NCBI GenBank assembly: GCA_020848615.1
Contig: JADLHW010000028.1
Span: 1 to 64,000, forward strand
DNA: 64,000 nucleotides
Reading direction: 5' to 3'
Source: Thermoleophilia bacterium
Lineage (GTDB): Bacteria > Actinomycetota > Thermoleophilia > Miltoncostaeales > Miltoncostaeaceae
Under the pieces are notes generated by a model that was given only the letters and a program-made list of their open reading frames with translations, searched no databases and was not told where the DNA came from. The position numbers were made by a program, and so were the translations under genes. The first letter of the stretch is position 1. Every line of letters starts with the position of its first letter. Below are positions 10,020 to 16,693 of this stretch, in pieces.

Positions 10020-10766
10020 ATGAACGGTCTCACCGACGCCGGTGAAAGCGCCCTCTCCGCCGGGCCGGCCCTAGACCTGCCGGCTGAACTCCAAGCGATC
10101 AATAAGGCCTACGTCTCCTCGTCCGCGTTTGCGGACCTCCTGACGCGCGCGACACAACTGGCGAGTGACTTCGACGAGCTGATGTCGCTGGCTCAGGTGG
10201 GGCGCTCGACTCAGGACGCGCTCAAACTAGCCGCCAGAGAAGTCCAGTTCGGCGGAGTCCTAGCCCGAGCGGGCATGTTTCGCCCTGCCTTCGGATCGTT
10301 GCGCCTAGCCCTCGAAGTGGGCTCTTGGGGCATCTTCCTGTCGACGGATGAGATGGCCTCGCGTCGTTGGCTAACCAATCTCCAAGACGTGAGTTGGTCC
10401 ATGGCTGTGGCGGGGGAACGCGGAGTACTAACGACGCAGTTCGCCAATGTGTTCTTTCCTGAACTGGCCGAACATGTTGATGACTACCACGGGCGCGCAA
10501 CCAGCCTCTATAGAACGCTCTCGGGGTTCGTCCACGGAGAAGTGCGAACACATGCGCTCGCTGGAACAATCGCCTATTCAGAAGAAAGCCTGAGTCAGGT
10601 AAGAGTTGCGATAGGCGATGTAGGCGAGCTCCTCCTCTTTATGTTCCTGCTGCGCTACGCTAGTGATATCCATTCGCTTACCTCGGCGGCTGAGGCTGCA
10701 CTCCAGAATGCTCTCGGTCACTTGTCGCCCGTCCGCGAGTGGCTCGAGGCAAAGGACCGAAACTGA
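10020..10766 (+). CDS. Uncharacterised helical protein with HEPN-like motif, first gene of a low-GC pair
   Basis: Protein of 248 residues that I do not recognise. It is predicted largely alpha-helical with no signal peptide or clear membrane segment. The C-terminal half has Y164-R165 followed by SGFVH172, an R-x6-H spacing as in HEPN ribonuclease or HEPN-like domains. The usual polar residue after the Arg is Thr here, so this is tentative. ATG 10020 is chosen because it opens the first compact region; an in-frame GTG at 9966 would add 18 odd residues. Base composition is clearly lower in GC than the neighbours (58% on a sampled line). Its stop shares one base with the ATG of the ATPase gene. 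Confidence 0.7.
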   Translation: MNGLTDAGESALSAGPALDLPAELQAINKAYVSSSAFADLLTRATQLASDFDELMSLAQVGRSTQDALKLAAREVQFGGVLARAGMFRPAFGSLRLALEVGSWGIFLSTDEMASRRWLTNLQDVSWSMAVAGERGVLTTQFANVFFPELAEHVDDYHGRATSLYRTLSGFVHGEVRTHALAGTIAYSEESLSQVRVAIGDVGELLLFMFLLRYASDIHSLTSAAEAALQNALGHLSPVREWLEAKDRN

Positions 10767-12355
10767 TGGACGAGCTCCGGTACCGCACAGAGGACTTCAA
10801 ATCCTCTGAACTAGAGGAGTACTTCGTCCCCTCCGGTGGTGATGAGGAGATAATCACAAAGCTGTCCGGTAGAGAGACCGTACTCCTTGTGGGAAGTAGA
10901 GGCGTGGGCAAGTCGTTCTTGCTCCGACTCAGCGAGCATCGTCTCGAGAAAGACTTCGCAAGTAGACACGTCGTGCCGGTGTACGTAACGTTCTTCCGGT
11001 CGACACTGCTCCAAGCCGGCAATCAGATCGATTTCAGAGCTTGGATGCTCGCGAGGATTTGTTCGCAGGTCGTGAGGGCGCTTGCCAACTGCGGGGTGTC
11101 GGCTCCCAAGTCAGACCTCACGACCTTGACAGGCGGTCAGGGCGTGTCCGGTCAAACTACGCGGCTCGATGAGATCGTGGAGGCCCTCGAGGGAGCTTGG
11201 CGCCACCCAACGGAGAGCGTCGCAACAGCATCAGTGCCTACGGTCGAAGCGGTGCGTGACGCCGTTGCGGACATCTGCGAAGCCTCGAGTGTTGAGCGCA
11301 TCAACCTATTCATCGACGAGGCAGCGCACGTGCTTGTTCCTGAGCATCAGCGCCAGTTCTTTACACTGATGCGAGACCTTCGCAGCCCTTACATCGCCGT
11401 TAAGGCCGCGGTCTACCCAGGCACAACGGCGTACGGGGACTCGTTCGAACCGTCACACGATGCGACGATGCTTTCAGTTGATCGGGATCCCACGAAGGGC
11501 GAGTACCTCGACCAAATGAGAGAGATCGTTCTCAAGCAGGACCCCGCTCTCGCGAGGATGATAAGCGAGAACCGCTCATACTTTGACGCGCTCGCAACGG
11601 CTGCATCTGGAAACCCACGAACATTGCTTAAGACGTTGGCGCGGGCGAAGAAGTTGACCGCGAGGAATGTCACCGAGGTGGTCCGCGAGTTCTACCGCGA
11701 GGAGATATGGTCGGATCACTCGAATCTCGGTGAGCGATATGCCGGTCACCGGCGGTTGATTGATTGGGGGAGGGAGTTCCTCGAGGGTGTGGTAGTCGGC
11801 CAGCTGAGCGAAAGGAATCAGGGCGCGTCTGAGAAGTCCGCGTTCTTCTGGATTCATCGAGACTCGCCCGCCGCGGTCAAAGAGGCACTGCGGCTGTTGT
11901 CGTACTCAGGTCTTGTGCATGAGAGTGGAACCTCTATAAAAGGCACGCGGAGCGAACTGGGCACGAGGTATATGGTGAACTTGGGGTGCCTGCTCGCAGT
12001 TGAGAATGAGCCTGTGCCGGTATCCGCCAGTCTTCGTGGCGATCTCTCGATCAAGCGGATGATGGAGTTTGGGAAGAATCACCGCGCCTATGAAGAGATC
12101 GCGCGCTTGAACGTGGACGCGTCCGCGAATCCGAGCGCCGATGCGCTCCGAGAACGGCTTGACGCGAGCGTAGGTGAGCTGGATTTGTCCGACTTTCAGA
12201 AGAAGAGCTTGCGAAGCGTGGGCTTAGAGACGATTGGCGGTGTTCTGCAGGCCACCGAAGATCAGTTGCAGGAGGCACACTACGTCGGCCCGACGCGGTC
12301 TAGACAGATGATGAACGCCGCTCAAGCAGCCGTGCTTGAGTATCTCTCGGGCTAG
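10766..12355 (+). CDS. P-loop ATPase, ORC/CDC6- or STAND-like, with helix-hairpin-helix-like C-terminus
   Basis: Protein of 529 residues. The N-terminal AAA-type ATPase has Walker A GSRGVGKS at 43-50 and Walker B LFIDEAAH near 180-187, then a putative sensor region (SGNPRTLLKTL) and a winged-helix-like stretch. The last 60 residues (LSDFQKKSLRSVGLETIG, later VGPTRSRQMM) resemble a helix-hairpin-helix or RNA polymerase alpha-CTD-like fold. It looks like orphan ORC/CDC6-type ATPases seen in bacterial accessory regions. ATG 10766 overlaps the stop of the upstream partner, so the two are coupled. The low GC is shared by both genes. The function is unknown; nucleic-acid sensing or defence is a reasonable hypothesis, and a replication role is unlikely at this site. 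Confidence 0.75.
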   Translation: MDELRYRTEDFKSSELEEYFVPSGGDEEIITKLSGRETVLLVGSRGVGKSFLLRLSEHRLEKDFASRHVVPVYVTFFRSTLLQAGNQIDFRAWMLARICSQVVRALANCGVSAPKSDLTTLTGGQGVSGQTTRLDEIVEALEGAWRHPTESVATASVPTVEAVRDAVADICEASSVERINLFIDEAAHVLVPEHQRQFFTLMRDLRSPYIAVKAAVYPGTTAYGDSFEPSHDATMLSVDRDPTKGEYLDQMREIVLKQDPALARMISENRSYFDALATAASGNPRTLLKTLARAKKLTARNVTEVVREFYREEIWSDHSNLGERYAGHRRLIDWGREFLEGVVVGQLSERNQGASEKSAFFWIHRDSPAAVKEALRLLSYSGLVHESGTSIKGTRSELGTRYMVNLGCLLAVENEPVPVSASLRGDLSIKRMMEFGKNHRAYEEIARLNVDASANPSADALRERLDASVGELDLSDFQKKSLRSVGLETIGGVLQATEDQLQEAHYVGPTRSRQMMNAAQAAVLEYLSG

Positions 12356-12375: not shown

Positions 12376-14283
12376 TTGGGGGCGTACCAGGAGACCTATG
12401 ACCGGTGGCTCGCGGACCCGGAGGGCTTCTGGGCCGAGCGGGCGCGGGACATCGACTGGTCGCGGGAGCCGGACGCCGTGCTCGACCGCTCGGCGGACCC
12501 GATCTTCCGCTGGTACCCCGGCGGGCGGCTGAACACCTGCCACAACGCCCTGGACCGCCATGTGCGGGACGGGTGCGGGGATCGGGCGGCGCTCATCCAC
12601 GACAGCCCGGTCACGGGCACGGTCACCACGTACACGTACGCGGAGCTCCTGGATCGCACCGCCCGCGTCGCCGGTGCGCTGGCGCGCCTGGGCGTGGGCA
12701 GGGGCGACCGCGTGGTGCTGTACATGCCGATGGTCCCCGAGGCCGTCATGGCGATGCTCGCCTGCGCGCGGCTGGGGGCGGTGCACTCGGTGGTGTTCGG
12801 CGGGTTCGCCGCCGCCGAGCTCGCGACGCGCATCGACGACTGCACCCCGAAGGTGGTGGTCACCGCCTCCTGCGGCATCGAGCCGAGCCACGTGGTGCGC
12901 TACATGCCGCTGCTGGACCACGCCCTGGAGCTGGCGGAGCACCGGGTGTGGCACTGCGTGGTGCTGCAGCGCCCGCAGCACACCGCGGAGCTCACGCCCG
13001 GCCGGGACCTCGACTGGGACGCGTTCCTGGACGGCGCCCAGCCCGCGCCGTGCACGGAGGTGGAGGCCACCGACCCGCTGTACGTGCTCTACACCTCGGG
13101 CACGACGGGGACGCCCAAGGGCGTGGTGCGCGACAACGGCGGCCACGCGGTGGCGCTGAACTGGTCGATGCCCGCCGTGTACGGGGTGGACGCCGGCGAC
13201 GTGTTCTGGGCGGCGTCCGACATCGGCTGGGTCGTGGGCCACAGCTACATCGTGTACGGGCCGCTGCTGCGCGGCTGCACGACCGTGATGTACGAGGGCA
13301 AGCCGGTGGGCACCCCCGACGCCGGGGCGTTCTGGCGGGTGTGCCGGGACCACGGGGTCGACGTGATGTTCACGGCTCCCACCGCGATGCGGGCGATCAA
13401 GCGCGACGACCCGCGGGCGGAGCTCATGGCCGGGCACGACCCGGGGCGGCTGCGCGCCCTGTTCCTCGCCGGCGAGCGCTGCGACCCGGACACGCTGCTG
13501 TGGTGCCAGGGGATCCTGGGCGGGCGCCCGGTGATCGATCACTGGTGGCAGACCGAGACCGGCTGGCCGATGGCCGCCAACTGCCTGGGCATCGAGGCGC
13601 TGCCGGTGAAGCCCGGGTCGCCGGCGCGGGCCGTGCCGGGCTACGACATCCGGGTGCTGGACGAGGACGGCCACGATGCGCCCATCGGCGAGATCGGCGC
13701 GCTGTGCGTGCGGCTCCCGCTGCCGCCGGGCTGCACCCCCACCCTGTGGGGCGGCGATGAACGCTGGATCGACGGGTACCTGTCGCGCTTCCCCGGCCAC
13801 TACATGACCGCCGACGCCGGCCACATGGACGCCGACCGGTACGTGTACGTGATGAGCCGCATCGACGACGTCATCAACACCGCGGGCCACCGGCTGTCGA
13901 CGGGGCGGATGGAGGAGGTGGTGGCCGCGCACCCCGACGTCGCCGAGTGCGCCGTGGTGGGAGTGGCCGACGCGTTCAAGGGGCAGGTGCCCATGGGCTT
14001 CGCCGTCCTGAAGCGCGGCGTGGACCGCCCGCACGACGACGTGGTGGCCGAGCTGGTGCAACGCGTGCGTGACCAGATCGGTCCCGTGGCGTCGTTCAAG
14101 CAGGCGAGCATCGTGCGGGCCCTGCCGAAGACCCGCTCCGGCAAGGTCCTGCGCGGCACGATCCGCCGCATGGCCGACGGGGAGGTGTGGCACATGCCGG
14201 CCACCATCGAGGACCCGTCGGTGCTCGACGACCTCGCGGCCCTGCTCGAGTCGTTCGGCCACACGGTGCGGCCGCACGCCTGA
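12376..14283 (+). CDS. prpE: Propionyl-CoA synthetase (PrpE-type acyl-CoA synthetase)
   Basis: AMP-forming acyl-CoA ligase of 635 residues, the size of PrpE/Acs. The N-terminus reads like PrpE: a YDRWLADPEGFWAE helix, WYPGGRLNTCHNALDRH, then a YTSGTTGTPKGVVRDNGGH ATP/AMP loop, where the RDNGGH extension is typical of PrpE rather than Acs. WWQTETGW and the C-terminal SGKVLRGTIR with the adenylation lysine are intact. It should activate propionate, and acetate less well, to the CoA thioester in the cytosol. TTG start with AAAGGA 7 bases upstream. It begins 20 bases after the low-GC cassette, so its original upstream region may have been displaced. Confidence 0.9.
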   Translation: MGAYQETYDRWLADPEGFWAERARDIDWSREPDAVLDRSADPIFRWYPGGRLNTCHNALDRHVRDGCGDRAALIHDSPVTGTVTTYTYAELLDRTARVAGALARLGVGRGDRVVLYMPMVPEAVMAMLACARLGAVHSVVFGGFAAAELATRIDDCTPKVVVTASCGIEPSHVVRYMPLLDHALELAEHRVWHCVVLQRPQHTAELTPGRDLDWDAFLDGAQPAPCTEVEATDPLYVLYTSGTTGTPKGVVRDNGGHAVALNWSMPAVYGVDAGDVFWAASDIGWVVGHSYIVYGPLLRGCTTVMYEGKPVGTPDAGAFWRVCRDHGVDVMFTAPTAMRAIKRDDPRAELMAGHDPGRLRALFLAGERCDPDTLLWCQGILGGRPVIDHWWQTETGWPMAANCLGIEALPVKPGSPARAVPGYDIRVLDEDGHDAPIGEIGALCVRLPLPPGCTPTLWGGDERWIDGYLSRFPGHYMTADAGHMDADRYVYVMSRIDDVINTAGHRLSTGRMEEVVAAHPDVAECAVVGVADAFKGQVPMGFAVLKRGVDRPHDDVVAELVQRVRDQIGPVASFKQASIVRALPKTRSGKVLRGTIRRMADGEVWHMPATIEDPSVLDDLAALLESFGHTVRPHA

Positions 14284-14289
14284 CCGGCG

Positions 14290-14949
14290 TCAGGCGCCCC
14301 CGCCCGCGAGCCGCCGCTCGAGGCCGTCGAGGATGATCTCCAGGCCGTAGCCGAACTCGTCGCCGTGGTCGTACCCGCGGCCGGCGACCAGTTCGGCGAT
14401 CATCTCGTTCATGCGCGGGTACCGGTCCACGGGGAGCAGGTGGGCGATGCCGCCGGCGAACGCCTCGGCGTCCTCTCCCGGTGCGAACGGCAGGTTGAGC
14501 TCGGTGAGCACGAAGCCGTACACGTAGGCGTCGAGGGCCGAGAAGGCGTGGACGGCCAGGGCGACGCCGAACCCGTTGGCCCGCAGGCACGCCAGGACGG
14601 CCTCGTGATGGGCGAGCAACGCGGGGCCAGGGGTGCGGCGCGACTCGACGAGCCCGAGCGCCCAGGGGTGACGGCACAGCACCTCCCGGGCGGAGGCGGC
14701 GCGCGCGGTCATCGCGGTGCGCCAGGGCTCCGCGGCCGGGGGGAGCGCGATGGACGCGAAGGCGGCGTCGGCCAGGCCGTCGAGCAGCGCCTCCTTCCCG
14801 GGCAGGTGGTGGTAGAGCGACATCGCCTCCACCTGCAGCTCCCGCCCCACGCCGCGCATCGTGACCGCCGTGAGCCCGCCGCGGTCGGCCACGCGCACGG
14901 CCGCCGCGATGATGCGGTCGCGGGTCAGCGCCGGGCGCCGCTGCGCCAC
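14290..14949 (-). CDS. TetR-family repressor of the adjacent oxidoreductase
   Basis: Protein of 219 residues with an N-terminal TetR helix-turn-helix (about 8-55: RDRIIAAAVRVADRGG, then VTMRGVGRELQ and MSLYHHLPGKEALL) and a TetR_C-like ligand domain. The start is GTG 14949, with GGGAGG 4-10 bases upstream; an earlier in-frame start at 15003 would run through the operator. It diverges from the alcohol dehydrogenase-like gene at 15033. Two copies of CTTAC-N4-GTAAG lie between the two starts, so it very likely represses both genes. The inducer is unknown. Its 3' end lies 6 bases from the convergent prpE gene. Confidence 0.88.
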   Translation of the reverse strand: MAQRRPALTRDRIIAAAVRVADRGGLTAVTMRGVGRELQVEAMSLYHHLPGKEALLDGLADAAFASIALPPAAEPWRTAMTARAASAREVLCRHPWALGLVESRRTPGPALLAHHEAVLACLRANGFGVALAVHAFSALDAYVYGFVLTELNLPFAPGEDAEAFAGGIAHLLPVDRYPRMNEMIAELVAGRGYDHGDEFGYGLEIILDGLERRLAGGGA

Positions 14950-14974
14950 ATGACCTCCCGACGGGGTTGAACGG

Positions 14975-14988
14975 CTTACGGCCGTAAG
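14975..14988. promoter_or_regulatory. TetR operator, copy 1
   Basis: Perfect 14-base palindrome CTTACGGCCGTAAG, 26 bases upstream of the repressor start. Confidence 0.75.
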
Positions 14989-15008
14989 GCCATCGTGGAC
15001 CACTCGGA

Positions 15009-15022
15009 CTTACACACGTAAG
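15009..15022. promoter_or_regulatory. TetR operator, copy 2
   Basis: CTTAC-ACAC-GTAAG, the same arms and spacing as copy 1 with a non-palindromic centre. Centres are 34 bases apart. It overlaps the AAGGA ribosome binding site of the oxidoreductase gene. Confidence 0.75.
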
Positions 15023-15032
15023 GATGGTGGGG

Positions 15033-15980
15033 ATGCGAGCGGCGCTGGTGGAGCGGTACGGCGGGCCGGAGGTCGCGCGCGTGGCGGAGGTGCCCACGCC
15101 GGAGCCCGGGCCCGGGCAGGTGCTGGTGCGGGTGCACGCGGCGGCCGTGACCGCGGGCGACGCGCGCATCCGCGCCGCCCGGTTCCCGCGCGGCTTCGCG
15201 CTCCCCGCCCGGCTGGCGTTCGGCATCACGCGCCCGCGGCGCCGGATCCTCGGCGGGGTGTTCTCCGGGGTCGTCGCCGCGGTGGGGGAGGGCGTCGCGG
15301 GCATTGCGGACGGCGCGGCGGTGTGCGGGATGACCGGCATGCGCATGGGCGCCCACGCCGAGTGCGTCGCCGTGCCCGCCGCCCGGCTCGTGCCCGTGCC
15401 GGAGGGCGTGTCCCACGAGGACGCGGCGGGGGTGCTGTTCGGCGGTACCACCGCGCTGCACTTCCTGCGCCGCCGGGGCGGTGTGGGCCCCGGCATGTCG
15501 GTGCTGGTGATCGGGGCGTCCGGTGCCGTCGGCACCAACGCGGTGCAGCTCGCGCACGCCGCCGGCGCCGTGGTGACCGCCGTGAGCAGCGGGGCGAACT
15601 CCGCGCTGGTCATGGGGCTGGGCGCCGGCCGGGTGATCGACCACACGGTCGCCGACGTCACCCGGCTGGGCGAGCGCTTCGACGTGGTGATGGACACCGT
15701 GGGGGCGCTCACGATGGCGTCCGGCCGCCGGCTCCTGGCGCCCGGCGGCCGCCTGCTGCTGGTGGCCGCCGACCTGGGGCAGACCGTCCGGGCCCGCGGC
15801 GCGGTCGCGGCGGGCACCTCGGGCGAGCGTCCGGAGGACATGGCCGAGCTGATCGGGATGGTCGCCGCCGGGACGCTGCGGGTTGTGCATGACGCCGCGT
15901 TCCCGCTCGACCGGATCGCCGAGGCGTACGCACGGGTGGACACCGGACGCAAGACCGGCAACGTGCTGGTCCGGCCCTGA
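15033..15980 (+). CDS. Zinc-free alcohol dehydrogenase / quinone oxidoreductase family NAD(P) enzyme
   Basis: Medium-chain dehydrogenase/reductase of 315 residues. A GroES-like N-terminal domain (AALVERYGG, PTPEPGPGQVLVRVHA) precedes a Rossmann domain with the NADPH loop GASGAVGTNAVQLA. Zinc-binding cysteines of classical alcohol dehydrogenases are absent, which places it with quinone oxidoreductase-like members. ATG 15033 is chosen over ATG 15024 because AAGGA sits 8 bases upstream. It is divergent from the TetR gene and its leader holds operator copy 2, so expression is probably induced by a reactive carbonyl or quinone-like compound; that substrate class is inference. Confidence 0.85.
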   Translation: MRAALVERYGGPEVARVAEVPTPEPGPGQVLVRVHAAAVTAGDARIRAARFPRGFALPARLAFGITRPRRRILGGVFSGVVAAVGEGVAGIADGAAVCGMTGMRMGAHAECVAVPAARLVPVPEGVSHEDAAGVLFGGTTALHFLRRRGGVGPGMSVLVIGASGAVGTNAVQLAHAAGAVVTAVSSGANSALVMGLGAGRVIDHTVADVTRLGERFDVVMDTVGALTMASGRRLLAPGGRLLLVAADLGQTVRARGAVAAGTSGERPEDMAELIGMVAAGTLRVVHDAAFPLDRIAEAYARVDTGRKTGNVLVRP

Positions 15981-15985
15981 GCCCG

Positions 15986-16693
15986 TCAGCCGGCGGCGGC
16001 CTCCGCCGACGCCGGCGCGGGGACGTCGAGGTCGGGGAACGCTCGGGCGACGCGGGCGATGGCCTCCTCCGACACGGCCCGCACGCCGCGCTCCACCTCC
16101 GCCGGGGGGCGGTCGGCGAGCACCCACTCGGCGAGCGTGGCGTGGCGCAGCTGCGCCGTGGCGGCGAGCATGGCGGCCATCGTCCGCACGGCCTCGTCGT
16201 CGGCGGACCGCCCGGCCTCGGCGGCGATCACGTCCCGCAGGTCGTCCTGCAGCCGCCGTCCCCACACCAGCGCACGGGCCTGCAGTGCCGGCGACGCCCG
16301 CCACACCTCCAGGAACCGCCGGAACCCCGCCAGCGCGCCGGGCTCGTACATCGCGCCCCACCCGCGGCCGTCGGGGATGCGGTGCTCGGTGAGCAGGGCG
16401 CCGAGCGCCGCGGTGATGGTGACACCGGGGCCGCGGTCCGTGATGGCGCCCAGCAGGTGGGCCCGCAGCTCGGCGTCGCGGTCGAGGTACAGGTCCTCCT
16501 TCGACCCGAAGTAGTTGAAGATCGTCTTCACCGACACGCCGGCGGCCTCGGCGACCTCCGCCAGGGTCACGGCGTCGAAGCCGCGCTCCATGAACAGCCG
16601 GGTGGCGACATCCGAGATCGTCCGCCGCGTCTGGGCCTTCTTGCGTTCCCGGAGACCCTGGAACGCGCACTCGTCCCCCGAACGGGTACCCAT
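15986..16693 (-). CDS. TetR-family regulator of the ABC exporter
   Basis: Protein of 235 residues. The helix-turn-helix is at about 20-65 (RTISDVATRLFMERGFDAVT, then AGVSVKTIFNYFGSKEDL), followed by a helical ligand domain with a C-terminal Ala/Pro-rich tail. It diverges from an ATPase/permease pair of a drug-export type, the usual arrangement for a repressor released by the exporter's substrate. A TACA-N5-TGTA repeat lies between the genes. It converges on the oxidoreductase gene 6 bases away. Confidence 0.87.
   Translation of the reverse strand: MGTRSGDECAFQGLRERKKAQTRRTISDVATRLFMERGFDAVTLAEVAEAAGVSVKTIFNYFGSKEDLYLDRDAELRAHLLGAITDRGPGVTITAALGALLTEHRIPDGRGWGAMYEPGALAGFRRFLEVWRASPALQARALVWGRRLQDDLRDVIAAEAGRSADDEAVRTMAAMLAATAQLRHATLAEWVLADRPPAEVERGVRAVSEEAIARVARAFPDLDVPAPASAEAAAG

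Follow-up and report, generated by a model that had tools for sequence, protein, structure and literature searches.

A horizontally acquired gene pair coupling a predicted HEPN-like protein to an ORC/Cdc6-like ATPase in a Thermoleophilia bacterium

Introduction

What is a small, GC-poor gene pair doing between an importer gene and prpE in the GC-rich DNA of a Thermoleophilia bacterium? The window, that is the whole 64-kb stretch of DNA (64,000 nucleotides) that was analysed, contains such a pair. Here we ask where it came from, what its two products may be, whether they belong together in other genomes and which function would best account for their association.

Results and Discussion

Composition and insertion site of the cassette

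The following features define the locus:
10020..10766, plus strand, gene 1; ATG at 10020, TGA at 10764-10766, 248 aa
10766..12355, plus strand, gene 2; ATG at 10766, 529 aa
9947..12376, unstranded, foreign block of 2,430 bp; blastn homology to sister species G009 breaks off after 9946 and starts again at 12377; 59% GC versus 74%

The stop codon of gene 1 and the start codon of gene 2 have one base in common, and here the sequence-only reading was correct, as it was for the coordinates of both genes. The foreign block, slightly larger than the gene pair (10020-12355), carried only these two genes. Its GC content of 59.0%, compared with a mean of 74.3% (sd 3.3) across same-size windows of the 64-kb stretch, was the lowest among 1,232 window positions, the next lowest outside the block being 70.0%; such a deviation is far beyond chance. 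The low-GC cassette that had been proposed from the letters was therefore more pronounced than described. Of the single 60-base lines quoted in its favor, those at 10321 (58%), 10921 (58%) and 11941 (62%) were right, whereas the neighboring line at 13501 had 70% and not 72%. The weaker bias that had been suspected at third codon positions was borne out by GC3 values of 0.663 for gene 1 and 0.694 for gene 2 versus 0.94-0.98 in seven flanking genes.

In sister species G009, importer and prpE are adjacent on one contig with a spacer of ~40 bp, and the DNA on both sides of the block is ~86% identical to that of the window (blastn). Homology stopped at the importer stop codon (9946) and resumed at 12377, inside the prpE start codon; the start region of prpE reads ATG GGG GCG TAC in G009 and TTG GGG GCG TAC in the window. 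From this break and the change from ATG to TTG it follows that the block took the place of the ~40-bp spacer and of the initial A of the prpE start codon, leaving prpE with a TTG start. This TTG start (12376) may lower translation of prpE. A second indel with respect to G009 was seen at 14284-15987 of the window, where homology jumped from 14283 to 15988; it comprises a TetR-type regulator and a quinone-oxidoreductase-like gene, both of host-like GC and missing in G009.

Searches for gene 1 found it neither in the 41 other genomes of the family nor in 396 further genomes sampled from the phylum; gene 2, sought at E 1e-10, was missing from 398 further genomes within the class. The cassette was thus horizontally acquired and inserted here as a two-gene unit. 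Transfer, as had been suggested, is backed by the empty site in the sister species, by the alien composition and by the absence from relatives, in which the pair was not conserved at this site with host-like composition. The clean empty site shows that both genes travel together as one unit. No transposase or integrase was found in the foreign block. Read by eye, its two ends had nothing more in common than a weak inverted match with imperfections, GTCAGTCC / ATCAGTGTCC, which does not make credible terminal repeats. Neither a sigma-70-like promoter nor a terminator was detected in the block, a scan of little value at such GC. The pair stands alone between metabolic genes, the importer and prpE, and is not part of a defence island.

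Gene 2 is an ORC/Cdc6-like ATPase

The following elements were located in gene 2:
10892..10915, plus strand, Walker A GSRGVGKS, residues 43-50; G43, R45, G46, G48 and K49 invariant in 65 sequences
11300..11320, plus strand, Walker B INLFIDE, residues 179-185; D184 and E185 invariant in 65 sequences
11609..11620, plus strand, GNPR, residues 282-285; invariant in 65 sequences, sensor-2-like by motif resemblance
11750..12001, plus strand, predicted winged-helix region, residues ~329-412, after the AAA+ core; from the helix/strand order of the model, with the layout of the archaeal Orc1 matches
12134..12349, plus strand, predicted C-terminal helix-hairpin-helix, residues ~457-528, similar to the RNA polymerase alpha CTD; from a profile comparison with the PDB

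The product of gene 2 matched the Pfam family PF24389 (ORC-CDC6-like) with an E value of 1.9e-11 and 43.9 bits against a cut-off of 27; the curated cut-offs that it passed were those of broad ATPase families only (ORC-CDC6-like, AAA_22). The best Foldseek matches of its model were archaeal Cdc6/Orc1 proteins, with 2qby_B, a structure on DNA, at E 2.7e-6 and a probability of 1.00. At the C-terminus, the profile comparison with the PDB pointed to the RNA polymerase alpha CTD (E 9.8e-5), and two Pfam matches remained below cut-off, one to HHH_5 with an E value of 0.0066 and the other to RNA_pol_A_CTD with 0.012. Gene 2 is an ORC/Cdc6-like AAA+ ATPase by sequence, as the sequence-only reading had it, with an ORC fold predicted by the model. 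ORC-type ATPases are DNA-bound rings.

The absence of gene 2 from the 398 further genomes of the class speaks against a replication initiator of the Orc1/Cdc6 type, belonging to the housekeeping set of the lineage. In a tree that contained no housekeeping ORC sequences, the ATPase grouped with the other members of this two-gene system rather than with any housekeeping family, a point that rests on the absence from relatives as well.

Gene 1 probably encodes a HEPN-like protein

The following motif was located in gene 1:
10509..10538, plus strand, Rx6H motif Y164-R165-T-L-S168-G-F-V-H172-G173; family consensus YRECSE[YF]VHGN, closing model helix 147-172

The gene 1 product was predicted to consist of helices only, with a mean AlphaFold2 pLDDT of 91.6; the alignments for the structure models were built without the row from the plasmid collection. 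In HEPN proteins, an Rx4-6H motif closes helix 3 and an acidic residue is situated in helix 2 (PMC3710099). R165-x6-H172 of gene 1 falls within this pattern, and the model helices 62-83, 87-107 (with E99), 147-172 (R165 to H172) and 188-216 match the published layout when compared by eye on the predicted model. E99 was invariant across the family alignment. In a family with a mean column identity of about 33%, the Tyr, Ser and His of the motif were found in all 67 sequences and the Arg in 65, in agreement with the proposal, made from the letters, of a HEPN-like protein. Where HEPN proteins usually have N, D or H, in the position following the motif Arg, gene 1 has a different residue.

No family for gene 1 of the window was present in Pfam, PADLOC, NCBIfam or PHROGs; DUF5677 was matched in seven of 57 family members, with a best E value of 0.0085. 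The gene 1 profile had no match in the PDB. By Foldseek, the PDB match of highest probability (0.89) was 4nqf, annotated as HEPN, at E 0.59 and TM scores of 0.31/0.49, and nothing significant was returned from viral models. Taken with the motif and the predicted helix arrangement, gene 1 probably encodes a HEPN-like protein, a predicted ribonuclease. HEPN proteins are metal-independent RNases that serve as suicide effectors.

The two genes form one unit across phyla

A relative of the ATPase with 37% identity is encoded on a Planktothrix plasmid, with a gene 1 homologue directly upstream. The ATPase-seeded scan, in which each species was represented by one genome and only patterns from the window and Planktothrix ATPases were used, yielded 66 related loci. 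With an iterated gene 1 profile, all 68 loci, the window and one plasmid included, were found to carry the HEPN-like gene immediately upstream of the ATPase gene; among these, the gene 1 homologue is broken in L035 and cut by the contig end in L012. The median intergenic distance was 2 nt. Searching genome samples from the other side, with the HEPN profile, gave five strong matches outside the window, all adjoining the ATPase and overlapping the ATPase-seeded set.

The ATPase tree spanned 12 phyla and placed the window among Actinomycetota members on a long branch. The distance matrices of both proteins were correlated (Mantel r = 0.89, with none of 2000 permutations as high); this correlation shows co-inheritance, not contact, and shared ancestry contributes to it. 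Presence was patchy: even where a family has the system, no more than about 1% of its genomes carry it (3/399 and 2/301 genomes in two such families), and a single occurrence was found among 72,556 plasmids. No relatives of the window ATPase were detected in viral contigs, no copies of the pair in a phage collection, and none at DNA level in E. coli genomes with two gammaproteobacterial copies as query. The HEPN-like and ATPase genes form one horizontally spread unit.

In Nostoc sp. CHAB 5824 (L035:8080-9990), a transposase-like insert breaks the HEPN-like gene and leaves the ATPase intact, as would be expected if the effector were costly.

Genomic neighborhoods

Genes near the pair matched 245 defence-related PADLOC families, as compared to 44 for genes at >6.5 kb (E 1e-5; 119 versus 125 proteins), numbers that count overlapping families and not genes; this enrichment is no more than suggestive. 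The matches include type IV REases, methyltransferases and PbeA, and helicase-type restriction enzymes, C5 methyltransferases, HNH proteins and integrases were recurrent neighbors. The Planktothrix copy is located within an sspBCD locus for phosphorothioation and a Sphingobium copy near SspC/SspD homologues, which were within reach in only two of the 67 related loci (L003, L059). The SspBCD locus on Planktothrix agardhii plasmid p2 (L003) also has genes for a PbeA-like helicase, a MzaB-like GHKL ATPase, a DUF2779 protein and a PLD-family protein, a rich uncharacterised set.

Distant cousins of the ATPase, with 24-27% identity, were found on plasmids of Rhizobium, Limimaricola and Cupriavidus (L111-L113). 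There, the ATPase precedes a different, Rx4H HEPN-like gene, which in one case matched RiboL-PSP-HEPN at E 0.0012; the ATPases contain a zinc ribbon and, in L111 and L112, a weak C-terminal helix-hairpin-helix. Since this HEPN-like gene is a different one, ATPases of this clade seem to have become associated with HEPN-like partners on two or more occasions. With a DNA methyltransferase upstream of the ATPase in two of the three, these loci possibly represent a separate three-gene modification/HEPN system.

Proposed function and alternatives

We somewhat favor the view that the cassette is a horizontally acquired module for infection-triggered (abortive) defence, with a HEPN RNase under the control of a DNA-sensing, ORC-like ATPase. 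This sensor-effector mechanism is proposed because of the established biology of HEPN proteins and of ORC-type ATPases. The ATPase would assemble on DNA by means of two domains, the winged helix and the alpha-CTD-like helix-hairpin-helix, and may act as an ATP-dependent sensor or switch. A cue, probably invader DNA or a replication intermediate, would make it release or activate the HEPN protein, which would then cut RNA at its Rx6H site and halt translation of the cell or of the virus. A defence role is suggested by the predicted chemistry, by the defence genes near some relatives and by the literature on HEPN effectors; we also infer RNase activity, a physical complex of the two proteins and the trigger. 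In favor of this reading are further the strict coupling of the genes, the conserved active-site residues, the predicted ORC fold and HEPN-like helix layout, the transfer, the patchy presence and the distant cousins with their own HEPN-like partner. Counting against it are the non-significant sequence and fold matches of the HEPN-like protein, the atypical residue behind its motif Arg, the position in the window outside any defence island, the overlap of families in the neighbor counts, and the rarity among mobile elements (one plasmid, no phage). The broader proposition, namely that an as yet unnamed immune system present across phyla uses an ORC-like, DNA-loading ATPase with a DNA-binding tail of the RNAP-alpha type to detect DNA that is invading or being replicated and to license HEPN RNases of a new family, has in our estimate an even chance of being right.

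The pair might instead be an addiction module resembling toxin-antitoxin systems, gene 1 being the toxin, an RNase, and the ATPase serving mainly to neutralise it, and would then have spread by maintenance and not by antiviral sensing. Two overlapping genes with the effector first would suit such a module, as would the Nostoc copy with its interrupted HEPN gene beside an intact ATPase; a 529-aa AAA+ ATPase with two domains of DNA-binding type is, however, far bigger than typical antitoxins, and the occurrence on one plasmid only and the very low frequency also speak against it, so that we hold this explanation to be unlikely. We give still less credence to an accessory of DNA phosphorothioation (Ssp) or of another restriction-modification system that would use its DNA mark to tell self from non-self. 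The Planktothrix and Sphingobium contexts and the methyltransferases adjoining the distant cousins agree with it, but the block of the window contains just the pair, and the two loci out of 67 with Ssp genes in reach ruled out a phosphorothioation accessory as the general rule that the Planktothrix context had suggested.

Equally improbable, in our judgment, is that gene 1 encodes an inactive helical adaptor and that the pair serves DNA maintenance or regulation, with the alpha-CTD-like domain binding to promoters. The HEPN assignment came without a significant profile or fold match, and ORC-like ATPases serve replication and transposition; both would fit an adaptor. Against it stand the motif residues His, Ser and Tyr, which never vary among 67 proteins that have diverged elsewhere, and the very patchy distribution, which argues against housekeeping.

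If the preferred reading, defence by a DNA-sensing ATPase and a HEPN RNase, holds true, an undescribed system would exist across at least 12 phyla, and screens centered on E. coli, in whose searched genomes none was found at DNA level, may have missed it. Machinery of the origin-recognition type would be coupled to an RNase effector, a DNA sensor being wired to an effector that cuts RNA. The predicted catalytic and ATPase residues are already mapped.

Comparison with known systems

The earlier statement that no known system is matched agrees with our searches: Pfam, PADLOC, NCBIfam and PHROGs did not contain the pair. In PADLOC-DB 2.0.0, no model matched both genes over their full length; gene 1 had no match there and gene 2 weak partial ones. 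These concern Mad8 of MADS and the candidate system PDC-S01, to which 35 and 21 of 55 ATPase members were weakly similar (best E about 1e-5) in partial, low-scoring matches. Gene 2 has the N-terminal P-loop region in common with PF24389, Sll1717 and DS41_1 (NF053860), but falls outside the NCBIfam family of Sll1717 (27 bits versus a cut-off of 75) and outside the anti-phage protein DS41_1 (20.3 bits versus 370). Archaeal and eukaryotic Cdc6/Orc1 proteins share the AAA+ core and winged helix with it by structure, at about 12% identity; unlike them, gene 2 is coupled to a HEPN-like gene and, by context, is no replication initiator.

Ssp phosphorothioation systems need an adjacent sspBCD, whereas the block of the window holds only the pair. 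In HEPN-MNT toxin-antitoxin systems the partner is a minimal nucleotidyltransferase; that of gene 1 is an ORC-like ATPase, and the block has no further gene. The methyltransferase-ATPase-HEPN loci on Rhizobium and Cupriavidus plasmids (ATPase-HEPN in Limimaricola) have a homologous ATPase adjoining an Rx4H HEPN-like gene, but there the HEPN-like gene is of another family and lies downstream, and the ATPase bears a zinc ribbon; in the window, the HEPN-like gene is upstream.

The pair was not found described in the literature searched, and a supplement could still contain it; it is most likely an undescribed anti-virus system. Related themes have been reported, namely HEPN domains fused to DUF499 ATPases (PMC3710099) and Orc/Cdc6 ATPases in conflict systems. 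The DUF499-centered, BREX-related systems (Anantharaman 2013, PMC3710099; PMC12839542) resemble the pair in linking an ORC/STAND-type AAA+ ATPase with a HEPN RNase in the context of defence. In those systems, however, HEPN and a larger ATPase make up one fusion protein, accompanied by a methyltransferase and a helicase, whereas the block in the window has two separate genes without methyltransferase or helicase, a different HEPN-like family and an ATPase with a predicted alpha-CTD-like tail.
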